The notes under the pieces: model-generated | Databases searched by the model: none | What the model saw: only the letters and a program-made list of their open reading frames with translations | Told to the model about the DNA's origin: nothing | Assembly: GCF_001598215.1 (NCBI RefSeq) | Contig: NZ_BCXJ01000007.1 | Coordinates: forward strand, 62,001 to 126,000 | Direction: 5' to 3' | Source: Shouchella clausii | GTDB lineage: Bacteria; Bacillota; Bacilli; Bacillales; Bacillaceae_D | DNA: 64,000 nt | Program-made: the position numbers and the translations under genes | Part shown: positions 9,548 through 53,099 of the stretch, one piece after another | How the letters are laid out: each line of letters starts with the position of its first letter | Position numbering within the stretch: the first letter of the stretch is position 1

Positions 9548-9584
9548 GCGGTGAAGTGTCACCGCCAGATAAAAGGCATGAAGG
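9548..9584 (+). promoter_or_regulatory. Hairpin-CRRWAAA element 1
   Basis: GCGGTGA-AGTG-TCACCGC stem followed by C-AGATAAA and GCATGAAGG. First of a tandem pair upstream of the Csx16-like gene. Confidence 0.55.
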
Positions 9585-9632
9585 AAGGGGGAATAACCCT
9601 TTGTTCTTTGGCAATTAAAAACCTGAAACCAT

Positions 9633-9672
9633 GCGGTGGTGAGAACCACCGCCGGAAAAAAGGACGAAGGGG
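9633..9672 (+). promoter_or_regulatory. Hairpin-CRRWAAA element 2
   Basis: GCGGTGGT-GAGA-ACCACCGC stem followed by C-GGAAAA and ACGAAGG. Nearly identical to the element at 19017. Confidence 0.6.
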
Positions 9673-9727
9673 AAAGCAAAAACCCTATCTAAACCGGGTG
9701 GCGGCCGACGCTAAAGGAGTTTTTTAA

Positions 9728-10270
9728 ATGATGACAATTAAAGATCTACTAGCAACTAAAAAGGTTAACGCAACAGGCTTTGCGGCAATCGCTGCACTGT
9801 CCGAGTACAGCGAAGGAACAGAAGAGGTTGTTCTTTCTTCCCTACCACCTGCCGTATTAGCAGCGCAAGGCGTGACAGAATATTATGCCCTCCAGATCCC
9901 ACGCGGCTCAGTTTTCAAAACCGCAGAAGACATCATTGAAGCGAATTTACCTGTCCGTAAATACCAGATCAACCCTGTAGATGTTACCGACATGGAAACG
10001 GTTATTGTTAACCGCCATGAAGGCACAATTAAAATTCTGAAGGAAATGTTTCCATGGGCTGAAGTGCTGGTACAAGTCACAGAAAAAGAAATTGTAGGAA
10101 AGCACGTTGTTGGTGGCCTTCCACCCCACTTAATGACAGCTGCAGGCGCTTTTACGTCTGCGTATATTAAAGGATTTGATTACGCTAAAGACGGCGATCT
10201 CTCTGGGGATGAGCTTAAAGAGCGATTGGTTGTCGCCGACAAGCCGATCACTATAGAAGAAATCAATTAG
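9728..10270 (+). CDS. Csx16-like protein, possible cyclic-oligonucleotide (ring) nuclease
   Basis: 180 residues. The C-terminal half (from about residue 88) resembles Csx16 (Cas_VVA1548): VIVNRHEGTIKIL at the start, VTEKEIVGKHVVGGLPPHL in the middle and a GDLSGDELKERL end. The N-terminal half carries a weaker similar block (SLPPAVLAAQGV), suggesting an internal duplication that lost the RH motif. Csx16 proteins accompany type III CRISPR systems and are considered ring nucleases that remove cyclic oligoadenylate. There is no CRISPR locus here, so a counter-defence role is the natural inference. AAAGGAG precedes the ATG, and two hairpin elements lie upstream. Confidence 0.65.
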   Translation: MMTIKDLLATKKVNATGFAAIAALSEYSEGTEEVVLSSLPPAVLAAQGVTEYYALQIPRGSVFKTAEDIIEANLPVRKYQINPVDVTDMETVIVNRHEGTIKILKEMFPWAEVLVQVTEKEIVGKHVVGGLPPHLMTAAGAFTSAYIKGFDYAKDGDLSGDELKERLVVADKPITIEEIN

Positions 10271-10332
10271 TTTTGCTAGCGCCCGTCTATTAAAAGGTGG
10301 GCGCAAAGGAGAATTAATTAAATTAAACTTTA

Positions 10333-10515
10333 TTGGCTGAAAAAAAAATGAAGCAATTACACAAAGATGTTCTGCAGGTAACAGGCTATGATTTTTCTCA
10401 ATCAAATTCTCGCTTAGATGATATTTTAACTGAATACACAGAGATCGACCAAAAAACTGGCATACGCTATGCATTAATCCCGCCATCAGGGTGGACACGA
10501 TGGGGTGTTAATTGA
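10333..10515 (+). CDS. Small hypothetical protein, 60 aa
   Basis: Weakly supported ORF between two better ones. The TTG start is 20 bases past the nearest AAAGGAG; an ATG at 10348 is an alternative. A GCGCCC/GGGCGC hairpin at 10280-10305 lies upstream. Confidence 0.4.
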   Translation: MAEKKMKQLHKDVLQVTGYDFSQSNSRLDDILTEYTEIDQKTGIRYALIPPSGWTRWGVN

Positions 10516-10535
10516 AACACGAAAGGAGAATTACT

Positions 10536-11384
10536 ATGAAACTAATCAACATTGACTTCACACAGACCAAAATGCCATTCGGCAAGGCGACAGTTTTAAA
10601 GTTAGGAGACAGAACTAGATTTAAAAACATTATTGTCAAAAGGCCGCATTCAAAGCACTACAATATTTCCATAACAAAACAGTTTAATTTATGTTTTGTA
10701 GGAGAACAACGCCCAAGCGACGGGTGGGTTATTAAACTAACGGGCAAAGAAATACTAGCCCAAGAGAAGTACACTCAAAGCTTCCTAAAACTTGTCGATC
10801 ATAGGCATAGTGACATTAGTAAAAGGGATGTCATTTGTATATGCAATATATTCCCTGTCGTTTTTTATGAGTCAAGAAGCGATGGAAAATTTACAGCATA
10901 CCACATAAAGAGTAAAAATTCCTATACTGTATCAATCGTAGACAATCCGCGCGACCAGGCCACAAATCTCATTAGCCTGACAAATGACGGTACAGAAATT
11001 TGGAATTTGCGCTCATATGAATTAAGAGTATTTCTGCATACTTTTGTCCCAAAAAACACCAACGAGCAAATCTTTAAAATTCTATACCCCATCCGTTTCT
11101 GTACGACATTCGGCCTCACAAGAAAATTCGATAATTTGTTAATAGAGCCTAATAAAGACGGCAGTATTACGTACTGGACAACAAATGAAAGTGATCTTCC
11201 TATAAAAAATGGAAAAATCGTAGGGGTTCCGCATGCGAAATATACTGCATACGATCAAGTATTCCCCAGCGGGCCCGCTAAAACAGACAAGATGACAATC
11301 GATATTGCACAAAAGATTGTTAACTACTATTTAACTGAGCAGACATTCGATTCCGTCAAGCGTCTTAACCTATGGGACGATTAA
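10536..11384 (+). CDS. Hypothetical protein, 282 aa
   Basis: Not recognised. AAAGGAG is followed 9 bases later by the chosen ATG; an upstream in-frame start at 10512 lacks a site. The product is soluble, basic and beta-rich, with aromatic residues throughout and no membrane segment. Codon use is like the neighbours. Confidence 0.7.
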   Translation: MKLINIDFTQTKMPFGKATVLKLGDRTRFKNIIVKRPHSKHYNISITKQFNLCFVGEQRPSDGWVIKLTGKEILAQEKYTQSFLKLVDHRHSDISKRDVICICNIFPVVFYESRSDGKFTAYHIKSKNSYTVSIVDNPRDQATNLISLTNDGTEIWNLRSYELRVFLHTFVPKNTNEQIFKILYPIRFCTTFGLTRKFDNLLIEPNKDGSITYWTTNESDLPIKNGKIVGVPHAKYTAYDQVFPSGPAKTDKMTIDIAQKIVNYYLTEQTFDSVKRLNLWDD

Positions 11385-11412
11385 TGATTAATAGTTAATA
11401 AGGAGAATGTAC

Positions 11413-11433
11413 ATGAAACAAGCCGTTTTTTAG
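11413..11433 (+). CDS. Possible 6-residue leader peptide
   Basis: AAGGAG with good spacing precedes ATG for MKQAVF and a stop. The following 130 bases hold repeated AAACGGTTTT/AAGCCGTTTT segments that can pair, which resembles a translated leader before the gene at 11567. It may instead be a gene remnant. Confidence 0.25.
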   Translation: MKQAVF

Positions 11434-11566
11434 ACCGTAAGGTAGGCTGTCAAACGGTTTTGATCACCCCCTCAATAAGTAATGACTTTCAGGCAAACGC
11501 ATGCTTTCCAGACTTACGTTCCACTGTTCCGTAGATCCTTTCAAAAAAATATTAGGAGTGATTAGA

Positions 11567-11707
11567 TTGACCACTATTTACGAAAGACTGCTCTTCCTTG
11601 CCAAAGGAGGTAGAAAGAGCTACTGGCATAAAGGAAAGGAAAATAAAAACACAACAAAACTACAAAACTTGCTAGACGAGTTTGCTAGCAAAAATCACAC
11701 CCTCTAA
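11567..11707 (+). CDS. Small basic protein, 46 aa
   Basis: TTG start at 11567 behind TTAGGAGTG with 7-base spacing. The 46 residues are rich in lysine and arginine (FLAKGGRKSYWHKGKENK) and could bind nucleic acid. An upstream in-frame ATG at 11501 has no ribosome binding site. Confidence 0.45.
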   Translation: MTTIYERLLFLAKGGRKSYWHKGKENKNTTKLQNLLDEFASKNHTL

Positions 11708-11725
11708 TCAATCAATTAAGCGCAA

Positions 11726-11780
11726 ATTGGTGTTTGCTTGACTACATAACGTTTGTTGTGTAGTCAGTCGATGCACCAAT
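11726..11780. repeat. Long imperfect inverted repeat
   Basis: Outer ATTGGTG/CACCAAT and inner TGACTACA/TGTAGTCA arms, extended by ATAAC/GTTGT, form a hairpin of about 19 pairs with a four-base loop. There is no T run, so a leader-RNA structure or operator is more likely than a terminator. Confidence 0.55.
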
Positions 11781-11836
11781 CGCCAACCGCATAAGACCTG
11801 ACCGCAACGGCAGGCTGTGGATAGGAGGAAACGAAA

Positions 11837-12391
11837 ATGGAAACAACTTTTGAAAACTTGGAAAAGCAAGCAAATAATTCGATGGTGCATCTTTGCTTGC
11901 AACACAGCTTACGCCTTTTCCCCGGTAAAAAATACAAACAAGTTCTTTTTCCGGCAAAGTACCTTGTTATGCCGGAAAAACGGGAAGAACTACTCAGTTT
12001 TCTTCTTGAACATGTAAAGGATTTAGATTTCACTTATTTGGATATAGAAATATCCGCAATGAGGAAATTTAAAAACGAAGACATGAGTGTTCATAGGCCT
12101 AGTGACTATTCGAGAGCCAAGACTCTTGTCGCCATTTTATGGTACAGGAAATGCGAAGAGTATGATTTAATATCCCCTCGATTAGATGTTGGCAGACAAT
12201 CTGGCGATGAGCGATCCATCCCACACAACATGCCCTTCGGGGGACGAAAGGCGGTTGAAGATGTTGCAGAGCATCTCCAAAGATGTTTTTACGGTCACAG
12301 AAGCTCCCTCGGTAATATTCGCAGTCTTGATCGCTGGTATCTGTTCAGCGATGAAAAGTTTGAAATATTGACGGGCAAATCACCTGTGTAA
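11837..12391 (+). CDS. Hypothetical protein, 184 aa
   Basis: Not recognised. ATAGGAGGAAA precedes the ATG. Charged and mostly helical, with a basic segment PFGGRKAVEDVAEHL in the C-terminal third. It is preceded by the long hairpin at 11726 and a CCGCA..GTGG mini-hairpin next to the ribosome binding site, so translation may be structure-controlled. Confidence 0.7.
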   Translation: METTFENLEKQANNSMVHLCLQHSLRLFPGKKYKQVLFPAKYLVMPEKREELLSFLLEHVKDLDFTYLDIEISAMRKFKNEDMSVHRPSDYSRAKTLVAILWYRKCEEYDLISPRLDVGRQSGDERSIPHNMPFGGRKAVEDVAEHLQRCFYGHRSSLGNIRSLDRWYLFSDEKFEILTGKSPV

Positions 12392-12461
12392 CAGACAAAA
12401 CACCCGCTTGACAAGTATAGCCGCAGCCACGCAAAGGTTGCGGGCAGGAGGAGAATGAAAA

Positions 12462-13337
12462 ATGATTAACAAATTAAAGCTCCAAATGGAGCAACGTTTG
12501 GTAGAGAAAAAATCGGTTATTACTAAATTAGCAAACATGATACTTGTCAATGTAAATGAGGTAATTGGGGGTACTTGGCAAGTAAACGAAGACGAACCGT
12601 TGGAGTTCGTCAAAGGAAGTGATTTTGAAGAAATTATAGTCCGCGTTTCGGACAGATTACGGAATCGAACTGAAATCAGTTTTGATTTTAATGACGGGAT
12701 CCTTAAAGGGCTATCCCGTGATTACACAGAAAAAATTTCTCTAAGTTTACTTAGAGTAGAGGAAGAAATCCTCATTGATTTAGGGTTTCCGTTAGGAGAA
12801 ACCCAAGTAGAGGGAGTTTACACAAGTTGCGAATACCAAAATGGCGATTCCAGATATGCCATTAGCAACACATTGACGTGCAACTTGTATAACGCAGATG
12901 CAGTTAAGCATCGCGATAGTAAAATCCGCTTAATCAATATGCCGTTAACTAAAAATAATTGGCAAAGCGTAGCATCTGTATTTGAGTCCCTCCCAGGAGA
13001 CTATGACATTCTTTTTGATGACCAATCTTTGATGGATTGGCATAAGGAACAGGAAGAACGGTACGAGAAAAACAACTGTCATGAGTGGTATGATTACGCA
13101 GACTTGACGTTCGTCGGGGATGATAAGTTTGAGTTTATCACTCCAACCTCTTTTAGAGAGGTAACAGTTGATAGGAGAGAAAAATCGATTTCAGTGTTTT
13201 TTCCGCACCAAGGCAGCAGCTGCGCTGCCGAAGAGATTTTGGCACAAGCGAATAATGCATGTGTCTATACTGTCAAAGAGTACAAGGAATTAAAAGTCTA
13301 TAAGGAATTAACAGTCAAAACCCCTTCTTGCAGTTAA
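12462..13337 (+). CDS. Hypothetical protein, 291 aa
   Basis: Not recognised. GCAGGAGGAG precedes the ATG and directly follows a CCGCA/TGCGG hairpin like that before the gene at 11837, hinting at shared control. The product is acidic, soluble, and ends in a direct repeat (KEYKELKVYKELTV). The terminator overlaps the stop codon. Confidence 0.7.
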   Translation: MINKLKLQMEQRLVEKKSVITKLANMILVNVNEVIGGTWQVNEDEPLEFVKGSDFEEIIVRVSDRLRNRTEISFDFNDGILKGLSRDYTEKISLSLLRVEEEILIDLGFPLGETQVEGVYTSCEYQNGDSRYAISNTLTCNLYNADAVKHRDSKIRLINMPLTKNNWQSVASVFESLPGDYDILFDDQSLMDWHKEQEERYEKNNCHEWYDYADLTFVGDDKFEFITPTSFREVTVDRREKSISVFFPHQGSSCAAEEILAQANNACVYTVKEYKELKVYKELTVKTPSCS

Positions 13338-13350
13338 GTTGGGGTTTTGC
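13317..13350 (+). terminator. Intrinsic terminator overlapping a stop codon
   Basis: AAAACCCC/GGGGTTTT stem around the stop of the 291-aa gene. Confidence 0.55.
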
Positions 13351-13375
13351 GCATTTCTATTAAGGAGGGGCTCAC

Positions 13376-13687
13376 ATGAGAGTACCGATGGCACAATGGG
13401 GTACTGTACTTACGGAGAGGGATCTAGGAAAGGAAATTAGAACGCATTTCCTTGATTCATTGTCTCTAGATAACTCAATCGTTGTGGATTTCGCCAACGT
13501 CGAGATGATTAATTCGTCTTTTGCAGACGAGCTATTCGCGAAGTTAATCGCCGAAGTAGGTGCATCCAAGGTTAAAAACAAAGTGAAATTAATTAACATA
13601 TCTCCTACTATAAAAGTTATTATCAATGAAGCCATTTTTACAAGGTCCAAAATGCCAGCGAAAATGAAAGGTGGTATAAACTCATAG
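13376..13687 (+). CDS. STAS-like (DUF4325) protein
   Basis: 103 residues matching the STAS-like DUF4325 family: a GKEIRTHFLDSL helix, IVVDFANVEMINSSFADELF with the anti-sigma-antagonist type strand-helix, and KVKLINISPTIKVII. STAS domains bind partner kinases or anti-sigma factors; the partner here is unknown. AAGGAGGGG precedes the ATG. The opposite-strand ORF 13372-13830 is a shadow. Confidence 0.75.
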   Translation: MRVPMAQWGTVLTERDLGKEIRTHFLDSLSLDNSIVVDFANVEMINSSFADELFAKLIAEVGASKVKNKVKLINISPTIKVIINEAIFTRSKMPAKMKGGINS

Positions 13688-13700
13688 GTGATTATACAGA

Positions 13701-13732
13701 CAAAACCCCCGCTCAATGAGCGGGGGTTTTGT
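13701..13732. terminator. Strong bidirectional terminator
   Basis: AAAACCCCCGCTC-AAT-GAGCGGGGGTTTT. It ends the STAS-like gene on the plus strand and the small RNA from 13858 on the minus strand. Confidence 0.8.
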
Positions 13733-13858
13733 TGCGTGAAATCCATGCCGGAAGAACATTCCGGCAAACACGCTGTGTCGGCCGACACGATTGAATTACT
13801 AAAGTTAGGGTTAAATGTATTGCAATCCACGCCCAGCTATCTGGGCGACATATTACTT
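13701..13858 (-). ncRNA. Candidate small RNA 1 (about 158 nt)
   Basis: A minus-strand promoter (TTGACA-17-TACTCT at 13865-13893) drives a transcript that would fold into three hairpins, CGCCCAG/CTGGGCG, the palindrome GTGTCGGCCGACAC, and TGCCGGAA/TTCCGGCA, before ending in the CCCCCGCTC/GAGCGGGGG terminator. No ORF with a ribosome binding site is present. It ends beside the STAS-like gene, so an antisense effect on that gene's 3' end is possible but unproven. Confidence 0.6.
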
Positions 13859-13864
13859 GAATAA

Positions 13865-13893
13865 AGAGTAGCATTCGACAACCTATTTGTCAA
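13865..13893 (-). promoter_or_regulatory. Sigma-A promoter with operator for small RNA 1
   Basis: Read on the minus strand: TTGACA, 17-bp spacer, TACTCT. The -35 box and spacer contain an inverted repeat TTGACAA-N5-TTGTCGAA, shared with the promoter at 14028. Confidence 0.65.
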
Positions 13894-13916
13894 TGCCGCG
13901 GCAAAAAAACTGAGCA

Positions 13917-14021
13917 CAAAATAAAAAGGAATACAAGCTAGTCCACTGGCTTGTATTCCCGCGCCTCACAATAAGAGGTGATCTTATTGCAGACTGCTAT
14001 ATTCATTGTAGGCTTAACTAC
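13917..14021 (-). ncRNA. Candidate small RNA 2 (about 105 nt)
   Basis: Driven by the promoter at 14028-14056, it contains a CAATAAGA/TCTTATTG hairpin and ends at GGAATACAAGC/GCTTGTATTCC followed by TTTTTATTTT. No convincing ORF. It lies just upstream of small RNA 1 and has its own terminator. Confidence 0.6.
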
Positions 14022-14027
14022 AAATTA

Positions 14028-14056
14028 AGAATACCATTCGACAACCTGTTTGTCAA
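14028..14056 (-). promoter_or_regulatory. Sigma-A promoter with operator for small RNA 2
   Basis: Minus strand TTGACA, 17 bp, TATTCT. The 23-bp segment around the -35 box and spacer is the same as at 13871-13893 apart from one base, so both RNAs are probably under one regulator. Confidence 0.65.
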
Positions 14057-14089
14057 TACTTTTCCATCTAAAAAGGAGTGAGTAGAACA

Positions 14090-14458
14090 ATGGAATGTTG
14101 GCACAACCGCATCTCGCTTAAAAAAGGGTACCCCCATTGTTTGGATTGCAAAAAAGACTTCAAACATGGCGAGCTAGGAAAGATAAGACAAGCCCGTAAA
14201 CAACAATGCAGCCATCCGAATCTAGAATACGGATATGCTTCAAACCCTCCGATGGCTTGGTGTCATGATTGCCACAATTATATTCGTTATATTACGGATC
14301 GAAATGGCAAACCGGTAAAAGAAGGAGATACGATTGTTTTCACAAAGACAGATATTCCTTATAAAGTCGTCACAAAAAATGGATTGTTAGGGGCGTACGA
14401 AGATGGTGAATTCATCGCACTTAAAGATGTATTAAAAAACTTCGTTAAAACTAATTGA
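14090..14458 (+). CDS. Small zinc-finger protein, 122 aa
   Basis: Start at ATG 14090 behind AAGGAGTGA; a GTG at 14078 is part of that site. Two cysteine/histidine clusters, CWH ... CLDC and CSH ... CHDCH, suggest two zinc knuckles in the first 65 residues, followed by a small beta-rich domain. Unknown function, typical of plasmid or phage accessory proteins. Confidence 0.65.
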   Translation: MECWHNRISLKKGYPHCLDCKKDFKHGELGKIRQARKQQCSHPNLEYGYASNPPMAWCHDCHNYIRYITDRNGKPVKEGDTIVFTKTDIPYKVVTKNGLLGAYEDGEFIALKDVLKNFVKTN

Positions 14459-14524
14459 GTCCCCTCCCCCATTTTTATTATCTCCACTTAAGCTTAAAAA
14501 TTATCCAAAAGGAGACTGAGAAAA

Positions 14525-14911
14525 ATGAAATACACGATCACTCTTGATAAACTGGCCACGTTTTTCAATAGCAACCTCGCCGAACACGACCAGATTGGAT
14601 ACAAGTTAAACGGCGATTATGACGACAATTGTTATTTTGTTCAATCCCTTGATGTACAGAATATTCATTTTGAGGCTATACCGACAGAAATAAAAAAACT
14701 CCTGTCTACAGACGGGATGGACAGCAGCAACTGCTACATCTACGATGGCTATCTGGAATTTGACGATGTTATTAAGCTGCCCTATTTTAATAGGGTCACT
14801 CCCAACCAAGAGTATGCGGCCACATTCAGAATTACTATTAAAGACGAAAACGGGGAAAAATTAGATACCAAAAGGCTGCATACCGTTTTTGACATGCTAA
14901 ACAAAGAATAA
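14525..14911 (+). CDS. Hypothetical protein, 128 aa
   Basis: Not recognised. AAAGGAGACTG precedes the ATG. Acidic, beta-rich, soluble. A clean terminator follows. Confidence 0.65.
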   Translation: MKYTITLDKLATFFNSNLAEHDQIGYKLNGDYDDNCYFVQSLDVQNIHFEAIPTEIKKLLSTDGMDSSNCYIYDGYLEFDDVIKLPYFNRVTPNQEYAATFRITIKDENGEKLDTKRLHTVFDMLNKE

Positions 14912-14923
14912 ACTAGATTTCAA

Positions 14924-14951
14924 GCAGAACCTACGCGTTCTGCCTTTTTTT
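14924..14951 (+). terminator. Intrinsic terminator
   Basis: GCAGAAC/GTTCTGC stem followed by seven T. Confidence 0.7.
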
Positions 14952-15133
14952 GATTTTAACAAAATAGAACCCTCTCCCCTTTCCTATCAATACATAAATC
15001 CTTTGTACATCCTACGCATCTATCATCCCATGAACACCATGTAAAACACACTGTGCGCATCCGATACATATACCATACAAAACCAGTGCGACACGCCGCA
15101 CCGATCAATCGAATAAAAAAAGGAGCGATTGTT

Positions 15134-16162
15134 GTGGAATCAAAATCTTTGTCTCAGGTGACTCAAACACAAAACGCCCGCTTAAACGAGGGTGATTATT
15201 ACCCGTCTAAGGACATGCTCGCAGAAATGGTTAAGCAATTTCAAGCACCGGTCACACGTCGTGCGATCCGTCCCGGCTTTATTGCACGGACCGATGGCTT
15301 TGATATAGACCAAACCATCGAATTTTTAGAAACGCTTCCTGATAAACAAGGCGTGCTATCTCGGCTACTCAGCGTGAGTGACTTAACCGAGAATCTATAC
15401 AAGCGCTTTTCCGAAAACCCGACCAGCCTATATAATTGGTACCCGGCTGTCAAACGGGCGCTCTACGAGAGCGACACCGAGCTGAAAACTCCAGACACAA
15501 AAGTCATGCGCCTTCCAATAGAGTTGGCCCAATTCATCCGGCTAGAGTACCACAAAACCTCCCAAGCCGATAAAGATTTGTTTAATCGATTCATCTTCAA
15601 TCAATTCAAGTTGGAGGACGACAAGACCTACTTCATCAAAACCGGAACGTTCTCTTCCAAATTCCAGTTCGCTAACGCCAAATGCAGCGAACCTCGGGAG
15701 ATGGGCGAATACTTCCAGGTTATCAACAATTTCGCAATGGAAGTCGGAGCCGGCCAAACGGTGGATCTTGTCGTGCGTGAATACATCGAGGATGTTGAAA
15801 ACAACCCTACGATTTACAACGGCATGCCATTGCGCACCGAGTTTCGTGCTTTCGTAGATTGTGAAAAGAACGAACTTATCGGTGTCGTCCCCTACTGGCA
15901 CCCAATCGTCATGAAGCGCGCATTAAAAGTCGGACTGTCTGAGTCCATTCAACAGGACTATCAGACCTATTTGCGGCATGAAGACAAACTGACTGCAGAA
16001 TATAACGCTCACCTATCGCATGTTCGCAAAGAGATCGAGTGCATTCTACCGAACTTGCATTTAAGTGGCCAATATTCGATCGACATCATGAAAAATGGCG
16101 ATGATTTCTATGTGATTGATTTAGCCCTGATGAGCGAAAGCGCGCTGACTGAGTTATTATAA
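15134..16162 (+). CDS. D123-like ATP-grasp protein
   Basis: 342 residues from GTG 15134, which follows AGGAG by 8 bases; upstream in-frame codons lack a site. The second half resembles the D123/Cdc123 ATP-grasp family: DKTYFIKTGTFSSK (ATP-binding strand), DLVVREYIE, RTEFRAFVD, GVVPYWHP and YSIDIMKNGDDFYVIDLALM, the last carrying the metal-binding acidic residues. The ligand to be joined or phosphorylated is unknown. Bacterial and phage members are uncharacterised. AT-rich palindromic DNA follows. Confidence 0.55.
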   Translation: MESKSLSQVTQTQNARLNEGDYYPSKDMLAEMVKQFQAPVTRRAIRPGFIARTDGFDIDQTIEFLETLPDKQGVLSRLLSVSDLTENLYKRFSENPTSLYNWYPAVKRALYESDTELKTPDTKVMRLPIELAQFIRLEYHKTSQADKDLFNRFIFNQFKLEDDKTYFIKTGTFSSKFQFANAKCSEPREMGEYFQVINNFAMEVGAGQTVDLVVREYIEDVENNPTIYNGMPLRTEFRAFVDCEKNELIGVVPYWHPIVMKRALKVGLSESIQQDYQTYLRHEDKLTAEYNAHLSHVRKEIECILPNLHLSGQYSIDIMKNGDDFYVIDLALMSESALTELL

Positions 16163-16172
16163 TGGATTCCTA

Positions 16173-16206
16173 AATATATTACATATTAAGTAATATGTAA
16201 TATATT
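16173..16206. repeat. Perfect 34-bp AT-rich palindrome
   Basis: AATATATTACATATTA, two bases, then the exact reverse complement. It contains ATTACAT/ATGTAAT half-sites like those of the candidate partition sites and of the palindrome at 16650. Confidence 0.6.
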
Positions 16207-16260
16207 TTACTTAATAAGTTACCTATTACATAGATATGAAAAAGAAAGGAGAACTGAATT

Positions 16261-16640
16261 ATGACAAAAAACAAGACAAATACTATGACGTCACCATGAG
16301 AGTTGAGGTCAAACGAACAGTCTTAGCAAAATCCAAGGAGGAAGCACGAAACAAAGTAGACCTCTCAGATATGATTTATGAAATTAAATATTGCGGCCTT
16401 GATGAAGAAATCTTTGTCAAAGAGGTACCAGACTGTCTCCCCGATGGATACGACCGCATTGATGATATCGGAAAACAAATCGTCAAACATGCAGGAAATT
16501 CTGCATTGAGAAGGCTCAAAGAACAGTACGCCGAGATTCGGAAGATCAATGAGCAATTAGCAAACGCCGGAAAAAGAACACGTGAACCGCAAGCTTTCAA
16601 CCGGTTAACGGATGAATTTCTAGAAAAACTCAGAAGTTAG
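16261..16640 (+). CDS. Hypothetical protein with apparent 1-base frameshift at its start
   Basis: Good AAAGGAG and ATG 16261 lead into a frame that stops after 12 codons (MTKNKTNTMTSP). The long frame, YYDVTMRVEVKRTVLAKSKE onward, is reached if the six-A run at 16265-16270 has one more A. Alternatives are reinitiation at ATG 16297, which overlaps the short frame's TGA, or a site-less ATG at 16236. The product is a helical protein of about 125 residues, not recognised. Confidence 0.5.
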
Positions 16641-16649
16641 ATGTACAAA

Positions 16650-16680
16650 CAACAGTATTACATAATATGTAATACTGTTG
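16650..16680. repeat. Perfect 31-bp palindrome at the nuclease promoter
   Basis: CAACAGTATTAC-ATAATAT-GTAATACTGTTG. Its right end abuts a TTGTGT-16-TATATT promoter for the nuclease gene, so it may be an operator. Confidence 0.6.
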
Positions 16681-16734
16681 TGTAATCGATTATGTGTTGT
16701 ATATTATGAAACAAGTAAAAGGAGGGCATTATTT

Positions 16735-17304
16735 ATGCTTAAAATAGTAAACAAAATTCTATTCACCACGCTAATTACTATTACATTATTTGTGCTCAGT
16801 GGGTGCAATGAACTTATGGAAGTCTTAAACGAAAATGCATCACCGAAATCAGCCCCAGATGCATTGGAGGAATACCAAAAAGGTGTCGTGACGTATGTGG
16901 TTGACGGAGATACGTTCGACGTCGAACTGGAAAATGGCCAAACAGAACGGGTACGGCCGATTCTGGTAGACGCTCCTGAAATTTGCCACAAGTCCAGTCC
17001 GTCTGACTGTGAAGTCGAACCCTATGGAGATGAGGCCACAGACTTTACTAGAGAACTACTAGACGGAGAAACCGTTTATTTGGAACAAGATGTCTCCGAA
17101 CGTGATCGTTATGACCGTCTGTTGGCTTATGTGTACCTTGAAGACGGCCGCATGTATCAAGAATTAATCCTAGAAGAAGGGCTTGCCAAAATTGCCGTCT
17201 ATGAACCCGATACAAAATACCAGGCGCATCTAGAAGAATTCGAGCAAACAGCAAAGGACGAACAGATCAATTTGTGGTCGATCCCTGGCGCCGCCGGAGA
17301 ATAA
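16735..17304 (+). CDS. Lipoprotein thermonuclease (SNase family)
   Basis: 189 residues from ATG 16735 (AAAGGAGGG upstream). A lipobox LSGC puts Cys24 as the lipidation site, so the mature protein is anchored outside the membrane. The SNase domain follows with catalytic arginine in RVRPILVDAPE, glutamate in PYGDEA and the second arginine in DRYDRLLAYVY. Related to Bacillus YncB/NucB-type and staphylococcal thermonuclease, which degrade DNA and RNA with calcium. A surface nuclease could feed on or exclude foreign DNA. Confidence 0.88.
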   Translation: MLKIVNKILFTTLITITLFVLSGCNELMEVLNENASPKSAPDALEEYQKGVVTYVVDGDTFDVELENGQTERVRPILVDAPEICHKSSPSDCEVEPYGDEATDFTRELLDGETVYLEQDVSERDRYDRLLAYVYLEDGRMYQELILEEGLAKIAVYEPDTKYQAHLEEFEQTAKDEQINLWSIPGAAGE

Positions 17305-17322
17305 TACAGGGAGGAAATCAAC

Positions 17323-17658
17323 ATGTTGATTATCGGAATGATGTTACTGATTGTTGCTATTTATATTGGTTTAATTCTTGGTATTAGCGAGAAATTTAAA
17401 AACAACCGAATTAGATTAACTGGTGGATCAAAATTAATGATCCCGTTACTCCCTGTAATTTTGTTCTTCCTACATTGCAAGATATTCGCAGGGCGCATAC
17501 GGAATAATCATTACAGGCTTGCTTTCGGAGTAATAAAATTTTACATGACAAAATTCCCTATCTTAGTTGGAATAATTATTCAGAGTCATTATGACTCTGA
17601 ATGGCTTGAAAGCACAAAACCCGGTTGCTGCCGCAACCCAGTAAAATGCGCGAAGTAA
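17323..17658 (+). CDS. Small membrane protein
   Basis: 111 residues with ACAGGGAGGAAA before the ATG. One N-terminal membrane helix (LIIGMMLLIVAIYIGLILGI), a second short one (LMIPLLPVILFFLH), and possibly a third. The last 25 or so codons run through the palindrome TTCAGAGTCA-TTA-TGACTCTGAA and hairpin element 3, so the natural C-terminus may have been replaced. Unknown function. Confidence 0.55.
   Translation: MLIIGMMLLIVAIYIGLILGISEKFKNNRIRLTGGSKLMIPLLPVILFFLHCKIFAGRIRNNHYRLAFGVIKFYMTKFPILVGIIIQSHYDSEWLESTKPGCCRNPVKCAK
17623..17655 (+). promoter_or_regulatory. Hairpin-CRRWAAA element 3
   Basis: GGTTGC-TGCC-GCAACC then C-AGTAAAA and GCGCGAAG. It directly precedes the folded RNA region at 17656-17826. 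Confidence 0.55.
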
Positions 17659-44847: not shown

Positions 44848-44880
44848 AAAGATAATGCATTAGAAAAGGGGAGACCGACA

Positions 44881-45303: not shown

Positions 45304-45516
45304 ATGGGGTTTTTAGATCAAATTGACAGCCGCATCATCTTTCTGGCTGTTGGGACGCTTTTGCTTCTTGGAAGCTTTGCCACGATCAACAGCAGGAATG
45401 CATCAAAATTTGACCACGACTTCGCTTTCATATTGCTTATCGCAGGCATGGTGAGTCTTGGCTGTGGCTTTGGACTCATTGACCTAAGCAAATTGAAAGA
45501 CATGTGGCCACAATAG
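45304..45516 (+). CDS. Small membrane protein, 70 aa
   Basis: GGGGGTGC precedes the ATG and a TATAAT lies near 45210. Two membrane helices (IIFLAVGTLLLLGSFATI, FAFILLIAGMVSLGCGFGL). Unknown. Confidence 0.55.
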   Translation: MGFLDQIDSRIIFLAVGTLLLLGSFATINSRNASKFDHDFAFILLIAGMVSLGCGFGLIDLSKLKDMWPQ

Positions 45517-45528
45517 TGTTACATGTTT

Positions 45529-45547
45529 GTATTACATCTTACGTAAT
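45529..45547 (+). promoter_or_regulatory. Candidate partition site, copy 3
   Basis: GTATTACATCTTACGTAAT preceded by GTTACATGTTT, the same arrangement as upstream of parA. Confidence 0.45.
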
Positions 45548-45602
45548 TTTATTACTCATGAGTATTCAGTTTTTATTTTGAGGAGGAGGGATTGATAATA
45601 CG

Positions 45603-45968
45603 ATGCCTGCTATTGTTGACAAAATGAGTATTGAGAAACACGGAACCGGCAAACGGCTTGACCGACGAGTCAAGCTAACTGCCGAAGACAAAGACGCTAT
45701 CCGTACACAATATTTCAATGCGCACCCAAGCCAACGACCAACTATTACGTCAATCGCCGCCAAATACAACGTCAATCGTCGGCTGATCCAATTCATCCTG
45801 TTTCCTGAAAGAGAGGTCCGAAACAAAGAGTTGGCTCGCGCCAGGCGGAAAGACGGCCGGTATTACAACAGGGAAAAAAGTCGAAAGAACATGCAGGAGT
45901 ACCGAGATTACAAACGCGCTCTCTCAAAAGAGGGGAAGCTCAAACCATCCGAGCGTGAATCATCATAG
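45603..45968 (+). CDS. HTH DNA-binding protein, 121 aa
   Basis: A basic protein with a helix-turn-helix segment, TITSIAAKYNVNRRLIQFIL, similar to the HTH of resolvase/Hin-type or phage homeodomain-like proteins, and a very basic C-terminal helix. GAGGAGGAGGG lies about 12 bases before the ATG. The candidate partition site lies in its promoter region, so it may be under Par-type control. Confidence 0.6.
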   Translation: MPAIVDKMSIEKHGTGKRLDRRVKLTAEDKDAIRTQYFNAHPSQRPTITSIAAKYNVNRRLIQFILFPEREVRNKELARARRKDGRYYNREKSRKNMQEYRDYKRALSKEGKLKPSERESS

Positions 45969-46090
45969 AAATAGAAAGACAGCACAGCAGGTCCATACAT
46001 GACGTGCTTTTTTATTTTATGTGCAAATACCCTGGCAGCAAAATAAACGATTGAATCTTTGCTGTTCAAATTCAAAACAGGGGTGATTGG

Positions 46091-46642
46091 ATGGAAAAGG
46101 CGATCATGCACATTGGCTTCACTGGCCACAGACCCAAAAAGCTCGGCGGGTATAATCTCAACACGCAAGGATATCTCAACCTGCAGGAGGATCTCGAAAC
46201 CTACATCCAGCGACTTCTCGATGCGGGTTTCAAAAAAGTGGTTGGCCATTCCGGTCTTGCACTTGGTGGTGACACCGTTTGGTCAAAAGCCATTCTTGCA
46301 ATGAAAGAGAAACATCCCGGACGGGTACTGTTTCACGCAGAAATTCCGATGATGGAGCAACCTAACGCGTGGTTCAAACAATCCGACATCGATTTTTGGC
46401 ACGAACAGGTCGAACGTGCTGATTTCAAGTCTGTGTACGGTTCGCTAGAGGGCGTTGATGAGAACAAGCGCAGGAAGCTAGCCTCAAAATTCCTAGATTT
46501 GCGAAATGAAGGCATGCTTGACCATTCTGACGTACTTTTAGCGCTTTATGACGGATCATCAGGCGGAACAGGAAACGCGGTCAAATATGCCAAGAAAATC
46601 AATCTTGTGACCCACACAGTCCATCCGAGCGTCTATTTCTGA
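46091..46642 (+). CDS. SLOG-family (DUF1273/YpsA-like) protein
   Basis: 183 residues of the SLOG superfamily: IGFTGHRPKKLGGY at the start, KVVGHSGLALGGDTVWSKA, and VLLALYDGSSGGTGNAVKYA, which form the Rossmann-like nucleotide-binding pockets. SLOG domains are thought to bind nucleotides or NAD-derived ligands and appear in anti-phage systems and YpsA. AGGGGTGAT precedes the ATG. Its nearness to the macro-domain gene raises the idea of shared nucleotide metabolism. Confidence 0.75.
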   Translation: MEKAIMHIGFTGHRPKKLGGYNLNTQGYLNLQEDLETYIQRLLDAGFKKVVGHSGLALGGDTVWSKAILAMKEKHPGRVLFHAEIPMMEQPNAWFKQSDIDFWHEQVERADFKSVYGSLEGVDENKRRKLASKFLDLRNEGMLDHSDVLLALYDGSSGGTGNAVKYAKKINLVTHTVHPSVYF

Positions 46643-46690
46643 TGTTCGGATGTTTTGTTTATCTCTTAATTACAAAAGGAGGAGACTTTT

Positions 46691-47059
46691 ATGAATATCA
46701 AAGATTTTGCTGGTGTAAACAACCTATTTGAAAAACCAAATGGCGAGAAAATGTCCCACCAAGAACTGTACACCAAAGTAGTAAAGGGAATCGGGCTAGA
46801 GGTTTGTGAAAAGTATATCCCTGTATCGATAGAGAAACTACGCGATGCCCTACAGGTTGATCCGCACCTAAACACTATTGAACTCAAAAAGTGGGACAAC
46901 GCCGTGAACAGAGCTTTTCGCCATACTTTCCGGCTAGTCAAAGTTGACACAATTAGTCAAAGCGAAGCGGTATGTACACTAAAACAGGCGGCACGCATGC
47001 TTGTCGACAGGGATTATCCGGAATACACAGAAATGCAGAAGGAAAAAACGTTTATATGA
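46691..47059 (+). CDS. Hypothetical protein, 122 aa
   Basis: AAAGGAGGAG precedes the ATG. Helical and basic, unrecognised. Its stop overlaps the next start (ATGA), so it begins a three-gene coupled set ending at 47720. Confidence 0.65.
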   Translation: MNIKDFAGVNNLFEKPNGEKMSHQELYTKVVKGIGLEVCEKYIPVSIEKLRDALQVDPHLNTIELKKWDNAVNRAFRHTFRLVKVDTISQSEAVCTLKQAARMLVDRDYPEYTEMQKEKTFI

Positions 47060-47337
47060 GTAAACCGCTCTCCCTTCGGATGAAATGGAAGCTATTCCGT
47101 CGTTACTTGAAAGAAAGCAAAGACGGCGTCATTGTGAATTGCGCACATTGTGGAAGCATTGACATTGCTTTTGGCCATCAGATCGAACACCGCATTGCCG
47201 ACCTCCGTGTTTATAAGAGTAGTTATTTTTGCAATAACTGCGGAGCTACATGCAAAAACACGCAGGAATGGACGGAAAACACATCCATGCGCACCAATCA
47301 TATAAGAATTAATCACACCGAGGAGGAAAACAAGTGA
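47056..47337 (+). CDS. Zinc-ribbon protein, 93 aa
   Basis: Start taken at the ATGA overlap at 47056. CAHC and CNNCGATC give a C-x2-C ... C-x2-C zinc ribbon, followed by a histidine-containing tail. A longer frame from 46972 overlaps the previous gene and is discounted. Likely nucleic-acid binding. Confidence 0.65.
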   Translation: MSKPLSLRMKWKLFRRYLKESKDGVIVNCAHCGSIDIAFGHQIEHRIADLRVYKSSYFCNNCGATCKNTQEWTENTSMRTNHIRINHTEEENK

Positions 47338-47720
47338 ATCGAGAACAAGCAAGAGCGTATTTTGCGGCAACATCACTCACTTACTCTGATTTGTTAAAGG
47401 AAGACATTTTTCAATTACAAACAATCTTGGATCAACACCTAAAGTCATACTTCGTAAATGGTGGCAATCATGCCAAAAACATGGCTATGAAAGTAAGTGA
47501 CATTCGCAAGGAAGACATTCAAATGAAAAACGGCAAACTGATTTCAGCCCGTATTCAAATTGATGGCAGTTATTTCGAAAGGCGAGAAGCTATTACGTTT
47601 AGCCATACCGGTTTTATCGGTTTCGGTGGAGAACTTGATGGTCAGAACGTGCAGCCGATTCTTAAAGCGTTTATTGCCTGGTGTGATCAAATGGTGGATG
47701 CTAAAGCAGCTACTGTGTAG
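47334..47720 (+). CDS. Hypothetical protein, 128 aa
   Basis: GTG start overlapping the previous stop, with GAGGAGGAAAA upstream. Soluble, beta-rich centre (ISARIQIDGSYFERREAITF). Not recognised. Confidence 0.65.
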   Translation: MNREQARAYFAATSLTYSDLLKEDIFQLQTILDQHLKSYFVNGGNHAKNMAMKVSDIRKEDIQMKNGKLISARIQIDGSYFERREAITFSHTGFIGFGGELDGQNVQPILKAFIAWCDQMVDAKAATV

Positions 47721-47752
47721 GAGAAACCAAAACACCGTTAGGAGGCACAGAG

Positions 47753-47878
47753 ATGAAGAAATGCAAAAAATGCAAAGGTCTAGGTTTTGTCTTAGGGTTA
47801 GTGTACAAAGGAATGTATAAAGGCGTGGTCAATTCACCATCGGTTTGCCGTAAATGCTATGGAAAAGGCGTTGTTTAG
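47753..47878 (+). CDS. DnaJ-type zinc-finger microprotein, 41 aa
   Basis: TTAGGAGG precedes ATG 47753. Two C-x2-C-x-G-x-G knuckles, CKKCKGLG and CRKCYGKG, separated by 18 residues, match one zinc centre of the DnaJ cysteine-rich domain standing alone. Possibly a protein- or RNA-binding adaptor. Confidence 0.65.
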   Translation: MKKCKKCKGLGFVLGLVYKGMYKGVVNSPSVCRKCYGKGVV

Positions 47879-47987
47879 GGCCTCTGACGAACGATCGCGT
47901 TGCTGTAGGGGCTTATCCTTGGGAACACTTAGAGTTATAATTGATGCCCTGTTTTGAGTTTGAATCTCAAAAAAGGAAGTGGTCTGC

Positions 47988-48380
47988 ATGAATCAATCAT
48001 TAGACAAATCAAAATGGGTGTGTACAGACCCAGATATGGTAGAAGAATTCGGCATGACTTGTATTGTAATAAGTGGGGAAATAAACCCTGACTGTAATGG
48101 TGACAATGACATCAAAATACAATACGAAAACGGTTCAATCGACTATATGAAACTCAGACGGTTCCTGTGCAGATTCAAGCAAATAACAACACCATTAACT
48201 ATCAAAGAACGACGCTCTATGTTGACCGGCAAATTACAAAAAGCAAAACAGATTACAATCGAGCTTGAACTAGAAATTAATAGTTTACAAGACGAATGCA
48301 ACCACCCGAACATTAGAGAAAACAAAGGATCAGGGTCTTGCCCCGATTGCGGCTGGAGGGGTGTAGATGAATTGCCATAA
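47988..48380 (+). CDS. Hypothetical protein with zinc-knuckle C-terminus
   Basis: 130 residues from ATG 47988 (AAGGAAG upstream; TATAAT near 47936). Central coiled-coil helix (LTGKLQKAKQITIELELE) and a C-terminal CNHPN ... CPDCGWRG cluster likely to bind zinc. The stop overlaps the next gene. Confidence 0.6.
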   Translation: MNQSLDKSKWVCTDPDMVEEFGMTCIVISGEINPDCNGDNDIKIQYENGSIDYMKLRRFLCRFKQITTPLTIKERRSMLTGKLQKAKQITIELELEINSLQDECNHPNIRENKGSGSCPDCGWRGVDELP

Positions 48381-48540
48381 GTGCCTAAAAGAAATGAAAC
48401 AAACACGTATAGACACATTACCCGAGAAGCAATTCAGGTGGTTGAAATGCAATACGTGTGGCTCAGTGGCTTACAAAACGATCAATAATTCTGGTGTTGT
48501 CATGAAAGTGGTTTGGCACAATAAGGCCGATCTTCAATAA
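48367..48540 (+). CDS. Zinc-ribbon microprotein, 57 aa
   Basis: ATG 48367 behind GGAGGGGTG, overlapping the previous stop. CHKC and CNTCG form a zinc ribbon. A terminator shared with the convergent recJ gene follows. Confidence 0.55.
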   Translation: MNCHKCLKEMKQTRIDTLPEKQFRWLKCNTCGSVAYKTINNSGVVMKVVWHNKADLQ

Positions 48541-48581
48541 GCCTTAGCTCACACCATGTCCTGTGCGAATAAGCACATAAA

Positions 48582-48630
48582 AACTCTCTTATCCGTTATA
48601 CAGAACTTGTGATAAGAGAGTTCTTTTTTA
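48582..48630. terminator. Terminator between convergent units
   Basis: AACTCTCTTATC/GATAAGAGAGTT stem then six T on the plus strand. Confidence 0.7.
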
Positions 48631-51376: not shown

Positions 51377-51391
51377 ACCCATGGATTTTTA
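51364..51391 (+). terminator. Intrinsic terminator
   Basis: CCATGGG-TCCTAAA-CCCATGG then ATTTTT. Confidence 0.65.
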
Positions 51392-51419
51392 ATTTCCTTG
51401 CGCGGAGTCACAGACATAG

Positions 51420-51451
51420 CAGGAGGTGCACTCAATTCGCCGCACCTCCTG
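51420..51451 (+). repeat. Hairpin sequestering a ribosome-binding-like sequence
   Basis: CAGGAGGTGC/GCACCTCCTG, 10 bp perfect. No start codon with a real gene follows. Confidence 0.5.
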
Positions 51452-51459
51452 ATTTCAAA

Positions 51460-52215
51460 AATGTTCCTTTGTTCCTGGTTTTTTCGAGAAAGCTTTTATA
51501 TGCGTAACATGTATATGTATATATAGTCTTTTATTAAAAGAAAGAGGAACAAAGGAACATAGTGACTGGAGCCCTTGGGAATAAAGGATTTCGTTGTTCC
51601 TTTTTTCTGTGACCAACCAGGGACATTCAAGGAACATTTGAGACCAAAAAGGAACAAATGCGGTCGAAATGCTTGCGTGCATGCAAAAAGACCATGCGAA
51701 CGAGCATGTTCGATAACACCTTTTTGGCGTGAAAATACTTGCGTGCATGCAAGAAAGCACCCAAAAAGGAACATTTGAGAGCCAAAAAGGAACATTTTGA
51801 CCCTAAATAGGAACAAACGAGGAACAAAAATAAATGAAACCAGGAACGGAAATTCGCTCAAAAACTGCTTCTTTGTTTAACTTTTGAAGTTAAAAATCTG
51901 TAGGAGTTCGAAACATTATCGAAGAACAAAGGGTCTAATCGACAACTTTCGACTATAAAAGACACGAACGGGTTTTCTGCGCGACCAAGAGGTGTTGACT
52001 CACATATCCCCTTTTTGAACAATGTTTCGCTTTATCTGCAGGGCTAAACAAATCTAGATTGTGAGAAGGGTCGGAATTAAGGGGCATCTAGTGACTTTTT
52101 CTTTTAAATAAGAGGAACAAAGGAACATGATCGCTCTAACCCTTCATACGCTCGCCTTTTGTTGTTCCTTTTTGATCCAACAAATCAGGAACATACGATG
52201 CAAAAAAGGAACAAA
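51460..52215. repeat. GGAACA repeat array, possible second origin
   Basis: About 17 copies of GGAACA(A/T), mostly on the plus strand and often as AAAAAGGAACATTT. The 16-mer AGGAACAAAGGAACAT occurs at 51545 and 52113, and inverted near 51461. Each of the first two is followed by GTTGTTCCTTTTT about 50 bases on, so a unit of roughly 100 bp is repeated. CTTGCGTGCATGCAA also occurs twice (51670, 51738). No gene is supported in 51377-52491. Confidence 0.65.
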
Positions 52216-52491
52216 AAACACCCGTGAGCGGAAAATAAACACAATCTCATGATTCCTGAAACCGCTTTCCATTAAGAGCTCGCAAACTGAAAGAGAGCCG
52301 GGTACAAAAAGGCCGTATAGGTAAAAACAATATGTCAACCCCCTATGGGAACAATTGTGAAAGATTCTTTATGAAATTAATTTTGCAATTCTAACCCCAC
52401 CATTTAAACTGAGCTTAGGGTGAAATTAATTACCATAATTAACCATATCGGTTGTTGACTGTTAATAAACACGGAGGAGGGACCCTATACG

Positions 52492-53094
52492 ATGAGACTT
52501 GAACGAATAACGTTATATGACATGCGTATGGCTTCCGGGAAATCCGGGGCGGCCATCGCAAGACTTTGCGGCACGACCTACCGCTCGCTGCGATATTGGG
52601 AAACAGGAGCAGCAATCCCCAATATTGTGAACACCCATGACTTACTCCAAATTTATGGGTATTCGTTTTACGAGCTAGATCTCACAACCTTTTATGCAAA
52701 ACAACCAAACCGGGGTGAAAAACAAAAAAGGATAGACGACGCGGCCGCTCAGAAAAAGAAATTCGCAATACCTCCGCCTAGAATTCTATCTCTATATGAA
52801 ATGCGCCGAACATCCGGGTATTCAGGAAGAACTGTTGCTAGGATTTGCGGAGCAACCTATCGCTCCTTGCGAAATTGGGAGACAGGGTCGTCTATCCCAA
52901 ATGTCATCAACATCGACGACCTATTGCAGATTTACGGGTATTCCTTCCATAAACTCGACTTAACACCTTTCTACACGACTTTTGGGGCGCGTAGAAAAAA
53001 ACAGAAAGAACTGGACGCCCAAACAGACAACCCACTTCGAGACCGGCGTTTATTTGAACAAGGGGTGGAACCATCCAATAAATCCCGCCAATAA
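52492..53094 (+). CDS. Tandem helix-turn-helix (XRE-like) protein
   Basis: 200 residues in two near-repeats, at about residues 5-65 and 100-160: LYDMRMASGKSGAAIARLCG / LYEMRRTSGYSGRTVARICG, then TYRSLRYWETG / TYRSLRNWETG and DLLQIYGYSF in both. Each is an XRE-type HTH. ACGGAGGAGGG precedes the ATG. With two linked DNA-binding units, directly beside the GGAACA array and before the helicase, it is a good candidate to bind that array as regulator or initiator. Confidence 0.75.
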   Translation: MRLERITLYDMRMASGKSGAAIARLCGTTYRSLRYWETGAAIPNIVNTHDLLQIYGYSFYELDLTTFYAKQPNRGEKQKRIDDAAAQKKKFAIPPPRILSLYEMRRTSGYSGRTVARICGATYRSLRNWETGSSIPNVINIDDLLQIYGYSFHKLDLTPFYTTFGARRKKQKELDAQTDNPLRDRRLFEQGVEPSNKSRQ

Positions 53095-53099
53095 CGGAG
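53064..53099 (+). promoter_or_regulatory. Hairpin-CRRWAAA element 12 (inside gene end)
   Basis: GGGTG-GAAC-CATCC then AATAAATCCCGCC, overlapping the 3' end of the HTH gene and upstream of the primase. Confidence 0.35.

Follow-up and report, generated by a model that had tools for sequence, protein, structure and literature searches.

The stretch analyzed here (the window; 64,000 nucleotides (nt), positions 62,001–126,000 of contig NZ_BCXJ01000007.1, or C7, from Shouchella clausii) carries a family of hairpins, each consisting of a stem of variable sequence followed by the tail C-RRWAAA-N5-YGA. C7 measures 188,829 bp and makes up 4% of a genome of 4.66 Mb in 14 contigs. It codes for the coupling protein of a type IV secretion system (T4SS; T4SS-DNA_transf, E 1.3e-24) and has MobL relaxase matches at both ends, on the minus strand, and is therefore probably circular; we take it to be probably a large plasmid that spreads by mating. 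Outside the window, at C7:172026–177341, lies a gene for a 1,771-residue RNA polymerase (RNAP) of the fused β/β′ type, which adjoins the coupling-protein gene on the same strand. As argued below, the hairpins are probably promoters dedicated to this enzyme.

Seven sites in the window are strong, combining a perfect stem of 6–8 bp, a loop of 3–5 nt, C, one or two purines, (A/G)(A/T)AAA, five further bases and (C/T)GA. They lie on the plus strand, as do the other features located in this paragraph and the window sites of the next; the bit scores given for them derive from a covariance model, R1, built from other contigs only. Candidate promoters 1a (GCGGTGA-agtg-TCACCGC, 9548–9565, 18.2 bits; tail CAGATAAAAGGCATGAAGG, 9566–9584) and 1b (GCGGTGGT-gaga-ACCACCGC, 9633–9652, 20.5 bits; tail CGGAAAAAAGGACGAAG, 9653–9669) stand before the same gene (9728–10270), and a terminator-like stem (9504–9523) ends 24 nt before 1a. 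Candidate promoter 2 (GGTTGC-tgcc-GCAACC, 17623–17638; tail CAGTAAAATGCGCGAAG, 17639–17655) has one extra base in its tail and is missed by R1 at E ≤ 5; it lies about 215 nt before the ATG at 17871 of a small gene without Pfam family (17871–18311), the frame of which is open from 17625, so that the start was our choice. The roughly 215 nt in between (17656–17870) look structured and are GC-rich, with no blastn similarity to the other contigs examined. Another terminator-like stem (18319–18346) follows this gene and ends 24 nt before candidate promoter 3 (GGTTGC-tgctc-GCAACC, 18371–18387, 16.6 bits; tail CGATAAATCATACGAAGG, 18388–18405), which heads a small gene with Pfam matches below cut-off only (18442–18930). 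Candidate promoters 4 (GCGGTGGT-tccc-ACCACCGC, 19017–19036, 22.2 bits; tail CGGAAAAATGTATGAAAG, 19037–19054) and 5 (GGTTGC-atac-GCAACC, 37449–37464, 14.6 bits; tail CGATAAATATAGTGAGA, 37465–37481) precede small genes without Pfam family at 19084–19545 (TTG start) and 37509–37922, respectively, and candidate promoter 6 (GACATGTC-gcc-GACATGTC, 42405–42423, 14.2 bits; tail CAATAAATCATACGAACG, 42424–42441) precedes a small gene at 42483–42893.

Twelve sites had been named in an earlier sequence-only reading of this DNA. Its eight best-supported ones comprise the seven strong sites and one weaker copy at 40212–40252, where the stem is mismatched (GGCTGC..GCATCC; tail CGATAAAATACGTGACGA; 11.9 bits, E 0.9). 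Among the four that it had itself ranked lower, 43070 is plausible (43069–43104, bulged stem, tail CCGATAAAAGGCTTGAAT, 12.4 bits, E 0.66), and in Evansella and Paenibacillus the same gene is likewise preceded by a recognizable tail; those at 44121, 44205, and 53064 found no support: R1 scored 10.0 bits (E 3) at 44148 and, at E ≤ 5, did not detect 44205 or 53064. We noted one possible variant copy (41610–41647; GAGTATGTC-ctttt-GACATACTC followed by CAATAAAACAACTAG, lacking YGA), which R1 missed at E ≤ 5. Further C7 copies, again all on the plus strand, occur outside the window at C7:30666, 33375, 33436, 33703, and 127534; the minus strand had no copy at stricter settings, and the loosest scan gave weak minus-strand matches. 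The position of most copies just upstream of a small gene was borne out, and the NADAR family is represented among the hairpin-headed C7 genes (PF08719, E 4.2e-29). Of the two targets named earlier, the Csx16-like gene indeed stands behind strong hairpins (1a/1b), but its match to Csx16/Cas_VVA1548 stays below the Pfam cut-off (E 3.1e-4, 21.3 versus 25 bits; E 3.5e-4 in a second search). The macro-domain gene is genuine (PF01661, 26 bits, cut-off 22), but the hairpins assigned to it are the unsupported ones. CCAGACC, thought to precede several copies, directly precedes only 19017 among the 12 C7 copies listed; ACCAT occurs within 12 nt upstream in five of these 12. Rfam returned no match at gathering score in the whole window, and a tRNA search of it found none. 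Transposon ends, CRISPR repeats, and a riboswitch were considered and set aside without a specific test.

For counting, we combined the tail learned on the window with a perfectly paired stem of 5 bp or more and applied this rule to C7 and to the complete RNAP-bearing contigs of four relatives (Virgibacillus, Evansella, P. gallinarum, and Paenibacillus Root52). On the strand opposite the RNAP gene there were 9 copies in C7, 5 in Virgibacillus, 3 in Evansella, 5 in P. gallinarum, and 2 in Root52 (24 in total), as compared with a single copy, in Evansella, on the RNAP strand, where the other four contigs have none. The exclusive plus-strand orientation seen earlier on C7 (9 versus 0) thus holds, and in P. 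gallinarum, where the RNAP gene lies on the other strand, the hairpins have switched likewise. Shuffled sequence yielded 0–0.15 copies per strand (C7 shuffles 0.05), and four other contigs of the same genome contained one copy on eight strands. An open reading frame (ORF) of at least 40 codons starts within 200 nt downstream in 21 of the 24 copies, and in these 21 the start codon lies a median of 59 nt from the stem; the rule misses the NADAR gene and the gene at 17871. Structure rather than sequence is kept, as had been suspected, since the 24 copies comprise 15 stem strings (11 after merging longer and shorter forms of one stem). Pairing was seen in 45 of 48 stem-pair cells and covariation reached 0.371 versus 0.139 in shuffles (0 of 500), but these values are circular because the copies were selected by perfect stems; we use the pair counts descriptively and regard strand, tail, and gene position as the informative features.

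Model R1, for which 12 copies from the relatives alone were used, provided an independent route. Its 18 best matches on C7 were all on the plus strand, though a few (e.g., window 36907) are probably due to chance, and 10 C7 matches exceeded the best match (14.7 bits) in 193 kb of contigs C8–C10. A covariance-model search for enrichment on related plasmids had been named in advance as a test that could overturn the idea of a hairpin family, and the family came through it. Scorers that tolerate mismatches gave many weak matches on both strands and on other contigs, which is why perfect stems were used for the counts; MAFFT alignments of the C7 copies put the stems in the wrong places and played no part in building the model. 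The exact hairpin pattern, sought in 100 genomes including that of S. clausii itself, occurred in the latter only.

Comparison of orthologous upstream regions, made among the matches listed, shows which parts persist. Upstream of the 42483 orthologue, Virgibacillus keeps GACATGTC-3nt-GACATGTC together with the tail and Evansella keeps the stem with a deviating tail; upstream of the 18442 orthologue, Evansella again retains GGTTGC/GCAACC with a deviating tail. The gene for a protein resembling single-stranded DNA-binding protein (SSB) is headed by one hairpin in C7 (GCGGTG/CACCGC) and by two in both relatives, GCAGTG/CACTGC plus one of the GCGGTG type. Virgibacillus also repeats the double hairpin that heads the small gene at C7:33484, though with an imperfect second stem. 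Sixteen queries served to locate these upstream regions, of which four (g19083, g53112, NADAR, and SSB-like) contained stops owing to a wrong reading frame. Upstream of the macro-gene orthologue, no hairpin was evident in Evansella and a doubtful one was seen in Virgibacillus.

The polymerase itself appears intact in its catalytic parts. The C7 protein matches RNA_pol_Rpb2_6 above the Pfam cut-off (E 5.7e-6) and RNA_pol_Rpb1_2 below it (E 1.3e-4, 22.7 versus 25.3 bits); both families were matched in all five RNAP relatives scanned, some below cut-off. Its sequence contains GDKLSDFGGNKG and DMDFDGD, and the motifs GDK..D..GNK(G) and DFDGD are invariant in alignments of 7 and of 16 sequences, so that both catalytic parts, the aspartate triad, and the paired basic residues expected of a two-barrel RNAP are present. 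A profile of the 16 sequences matched 121 PDB sequences at E ≤ 0.01, and the best 60 of these were RNAP chains, mostly β′, including the tape-measure-fused virion RNAP of P23-45 (8h2m/8h2n); a sub-profile of the C-terminal part, intended to single out the similarity to P23-45, matched no PDB entry. Among 72,556 plasmid records, 13 carry a relative (five Staphylococcus, five Lactococcus, and one each from Streptomyces, Rhodococcus, and Gordonia), all annotated ‘hypothetical protein’. In the staphylococcal, Gordonia, and Streptomyces plasmid records inspected, the RNAP gene lies within a few genes of a coupling-protein gene; the S. aureus, S. capitis, Gordonia, and Streptomyces RNAP plasmid records also have a MobL annotation. 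Genome contigs contributed 48 RNAP loci, the last two of which match over a short stretch only; many of the loci are in Actinobacteria. Identity to the C7 protein amounts to 82% in Virgibacillus, 83% in Evansella, 68–69% in two Paenibacillus, and 40% in Kurthia; among 41 genomes of the family and 397 of the order, the own genome included in both, only the own genome carried the gene. Two side observations concern these relatives: the Root52 RNAP frame (70662–75863) has one in-frame TAG, with two perfect hairpins plus tail still on that contig, and a contig classed as viral (IMGVR_UViG_3300026735_000021), the RNAP of which is 46% identical, may in fact be such a plasmid.

A sister system is found in staphylococci, where SAP020A, S. 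aureus NZ_CP150776, S. capitis pAYP1020, and S. epidermidis pHD75-1_1 combine a divergent RNAP with the motif AGTGGTTGC-3nt-GCAACCACT-TAGATAnnAATAAAA, the stem of which is somewhat variable and which heads small genes opposite the conjugation genes, among them SSB and NADAR genes in S. epidermidis. When perfect stems of 6 bp or more are required, these plasmids (in the order given) contain 10, 2, 7, and 7 copies on the strand opposite to their RNAP gene and 0, 0, 0, and 1 on the RNAP strand (26 versus 1); the start codon ends 36–42 nt after the tail start in 18 of the 26 copies. A BLAST search of the 72,556 plasmid records with a 48-base staphylococcal query hit five of them, exactly the five staphylococcal records with the RNAP, and did not match the eight other RNAP plasmid records. 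pLS20 (65,774 bp) and pSK41 (46,445 bp), which are conjugative and lack the RNAP, contain no copy of either type. At the sequence level, motif, strand rule, and RNAP thus go together in nine elements of two clades and the motif is absent from two RNAP-less plasmids, a strong association from which we infer a causal link.

Each of the four staphylococcal plasmids possesses one extra hairpin that lies on the conjugation strand some 0.5 kb ahead of the conjugation operon (at 4951, 46670, and 47050 in three of them, and at the matching place in pHD75-1_1). As judged by eye, this hairpin heads no gene; a short stretch, which three of the four plasmids conserve, and then a terminator come after it. 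Such a copy would have the transferred strand as its template and, speculatively and by analogy, may give rise to a small RNA or a primer. Relaxase sites and IS200/IS605 sites likewise consist of a hairpin with a fixed 3′ flank, which together with this gene-less copy could be taken to mean that the family serves DNA processing, as nicking or recombination sites, single-strand origins, or palindromic operators. We consider this very improbable: the copies follow gene starts and gene orientation, and a sequence-specific operator would not allow the observed variation of the stem.

Evidence that transcription may begin at the hairpins comes from their upstream flanks. In addition to the two window copies with a terminator-like stem 24 nt ahead, four of the 10 SAP020A copies have such a stem ending 8–14 nt ahead of them, which leaves no room for a σA promoter in between, so that transcription at these six copies either starts at the hairpin and tail or arrives by read-through. 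No σA-like site overlapped any of the six hairpins among the sites listed (60 of 80 in SAP020A), and in SAP020A as a whole such sites were no commoner than in shuffles (80 versus 99.5). The tail, moreover, has a pyrimidine–purine step five bases after AAA, and a step of this kind is a usual transcription initiator. Alternatively, the elements might act at the RNA level, as 5′ leader hairpins that bind a plasmid-encoded RNA-binding regulator or stabilize the mRNA. The closeness to gene starts, the conservation of structure over sequence, and the σA-like sites upstream of some copies would all suit such leaders; but at the six terminator-preceded copies no upstream promoter is left, and a leader would not require AAA and YGA to stand exactly 5 nt apart. 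For the RNA-binding regulator, one of two ideas put forward in the sequence-only reading, no positive evidence emerged, and we judge an RNA-level role unlikely.

The other of those ideas was that of folded promoters similar to Frpo/ssi of F-like plasmids, in which the hairpin would mimic a double-stranded promoter on the incoming single strand and be read by host RNAP with σA. Its promoter half agrees with the terminators and the fixed tail described above. Folded promoters indeed precede SSB and anti-defence genes on conjugative plasmids, the gene class (SSB, NADAR, anti-defence) and setting being the same as here (PMC11541004). Frpo promoters fold such that −35 and −10 boxes are presented to the host polymerase, which reads the transferred strand, no RNAP of the plasmid's own being involved (PMC11541004). 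The Bacillaceae-type copies, in contrast, display neither box in stem or tail (e.g., GCGGCTAACGCCGC-CGATAAAACAAATGACA) and their stems vary; the TTGC in staphylococcal stems is at best vaguely similar to a −35 box. Furthermore, the region 9300–19300, for which 24 promoter-like sites were listed, shows no overlap between these sites and its five hairpins, the nearest upstream site without an intervening terminator being 17510–17539, before 17623, and the staphylococcal element goes with the plasmid RNAP in the same five staphylococcal records. Strand polarity, too, is wrong for direct reading if that of pLS20 is applied (PMC5313138, PMC8708921): by this analogy only, the transferred strand would be the coding strand of the hairpin genes (PMC5313138), which could then not be read directly from the incoming strand. 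The host-RNAP half of the idea thus gives way to co-occurrence with a plasmid RNAP, and we regard recognition by host RNAP as improbable.

On the basis of these sequence comparisons, we propose, with a probability of roughly 0.73, that the hairpins are dedicated promoters of the plasmid's own RNAP which, in a manner similar to those of the phage N4 virion RNAP, drive establishment and anti-defence genes. The conjugative element would bring its own transcription system, with a single-chain two-barrel RNAP encoded beside the T4SS coupling protein. This enzyme would recognize a short hairpin, the stem of which is free to vary, plus a fixed tail that reads C-RRWAAA-N5-YGA in the Bacillaceae type and TTAGATAnnAATAAAA in the staphylococcal relatives. 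RNA synthesis would begin a short distance downstream, the first base probably being the purine of the pyrimidine–purine step about 14 nt past the stem, and would serve dispersed small establishment or anti-defence genes (NADAR, perhaps the Csx16-like gene) oriented opposite to the RNAP and coupling-protein genes. The hairpin would function at the DNA level, folded in a supercoiled or single-stranded template, and the RNAP may be made for, or delivered during, mating.

Several features of the N4 system are in line with this proposal, namely a short and GC-rich hairpin immediately before the start with a partly free stem sequence, an A-rich stretch between hairpin and start, an RNAP of its own, and use for the first genes expressed upon entry (PMC4496689). 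Hairpins directly upstream of genes and tied to an own RNAP are found here as well, the tie being one of co-occurrence. The two systems differ in that the N4 enzyme is T7-like and the plasmid enzyme of the β/β′ type, in that the N4 hairpin is centered at −11 with a 3-nt loop as opposed to a center some 20–25 nt before the start proposed here, and in that the phage has three such promoters and the element about a dozen. N4 hairpins are extruded from supercoiled DNA with the help of SSB (PMC4496689); if the pLS20 polarity holds, such use after second-strand synthesis would, by analogy, fit the plasmid hairpins better than reading of the incoming strand. Single-chain two-barrel RNAPs with promoters of their own, one of them located in the virion, are also known from P23-45 and other phages and plasmids, but the promoters of the P23-45 group are linear AT-rich or GC-rich motifs and serve phages, not conjugation (PMC10770324); the word ‘hairpin’ is absent from the text of that paper. 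The pLS20 family of MobL plasmids offers a further parallel, as its dispersed establishment operons have repeated regulatory DNA (EGeRS1/EGeRS2) in front of them and, in pLS20, run on the strand not used by the conjugation operon (PMC8708921). However, EGeRS1 spans 400–750 bp with many inverted repeats and EGeRS2 is a repressor-controlled σA promoter; no promoter was found when an EGeRS1 region of pLS20 was tested (PMC8708921). pLS20 is not among the matches of the RNAP search and has no such hairpins, and a blastn comparison of it with C7, Evansella, and Virgibacillus (E ≤ 1e-3) gave two matches, which fall in Evansella at a distance from the hairpins there and do not point to similarity with EGeRS1.

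A number of observations weigh against the proposal that the plasmid RNAP reads the hairpins. No clear hairpin family was seen in the Kurthia RNAP contig (91.9 kb) or in 50-kb parts of Gordonia pGKT2 and of the Streptomyces plasmid, no clear equivalent in the IMG/VR RNAP contig (86.6 kb; RNAP locus checked, the rest inspected by eye), and in Lactococcus pJM4A one Staph-type match without a family; with five RNAP-bearing sequences showing no clear family, the pairing of RNAP and hairpins is seen within two clades only. The tails differ between these clades, which share the architecture. One Staph-type core match, probably due to chance, comes from an IMG/VR record that yielded no RNAP, and relaxase and coupling protein co-occur with the hairpins as well as the RNAP does. 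R1 alone is not specific: in the whole genome at E ≤ 10, 13 of 39 matches lie on C7, all on the plus strand (150 of 3,245 candidates scored), and 26 lie elsewhere. The two orthologous Evansella promoters mentioned above retain the stem and not the tail, and some SAP020A copies have σA-like sites 25–32 nt upstream (e.g., 19575–19548 and 20098–20071).

Going one step further, the plasmid enzyme might be the conjugative equivalent of a virion RNAP, passing through the T4SS with the DNA and firing the hairpin promoters before host transcription sets in, an extension that we offer tentatively and with the odds somewhat against it. The conjugation-strand hairpin of the staphylococcal plasmids would then be transcribed directly off the incoming strand, possibly providing a primer for second-strand synthesis, and the other hairpins would fire once the strand has been copied and supercoiled. 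N4-like virion RNAPs are reported only from phages and prophages in PMC5512222, and RNAPs of mobile elements are mentioned in PMC7824862. In our literature search, we found no description of an RNAP on these plasmids or of hairpin promoters there. How incoming plasmid genes are expressed fast enough against host defences is a largely open question in Gram-positive bacteria. If our proposal is correct, an own RNAP with a private class of promoters would be a direct and testable answer to it, and a simple sequence search would mark small genes as establishment or anti-defence candidates. It would also be, to our knowledge, the first hairpin-promoter system for a cellular-type RNAP.

Some further features of the window deserve mention. 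Downstream of the weak hairpin at 40212, an apparently non-coding, GC-rich stretch of about 1.2 kb with inverted repeats (40480–41600) takes the place of a gene; it is 71–78% identical in pieces to Evansella and Virgibacillus and 68% identical over 184 bases to Paenibacillus. Rfam gave three matches at E ≤ 1 in 40200–41700, all below gathering scores, and megablast of 36700–48600 against the plasmid collection gave no match; the stretch is possibly a large RNA, an origin of transfer, or a replication origin. The region 52982–58006 encodes a phage-like primase/helicase (first listed phage match 32.9% identical over 84%), followed by two ORFs that by eye resemble the halves of a B-family DNA polymerase, the second with a weak NCBIfam match to a DNA polymerase model (E 0.0093). 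By eye, the region 21089–24988 resembles a polymorphic toxin with an immunity-type neighbor. An ATP-dependent DNA ligase is encoded at 524–1351 and a thermonuclease-like protein at 16678–17304, and both kinds of gene are also annotated on the establishment-gene side of pLS20.

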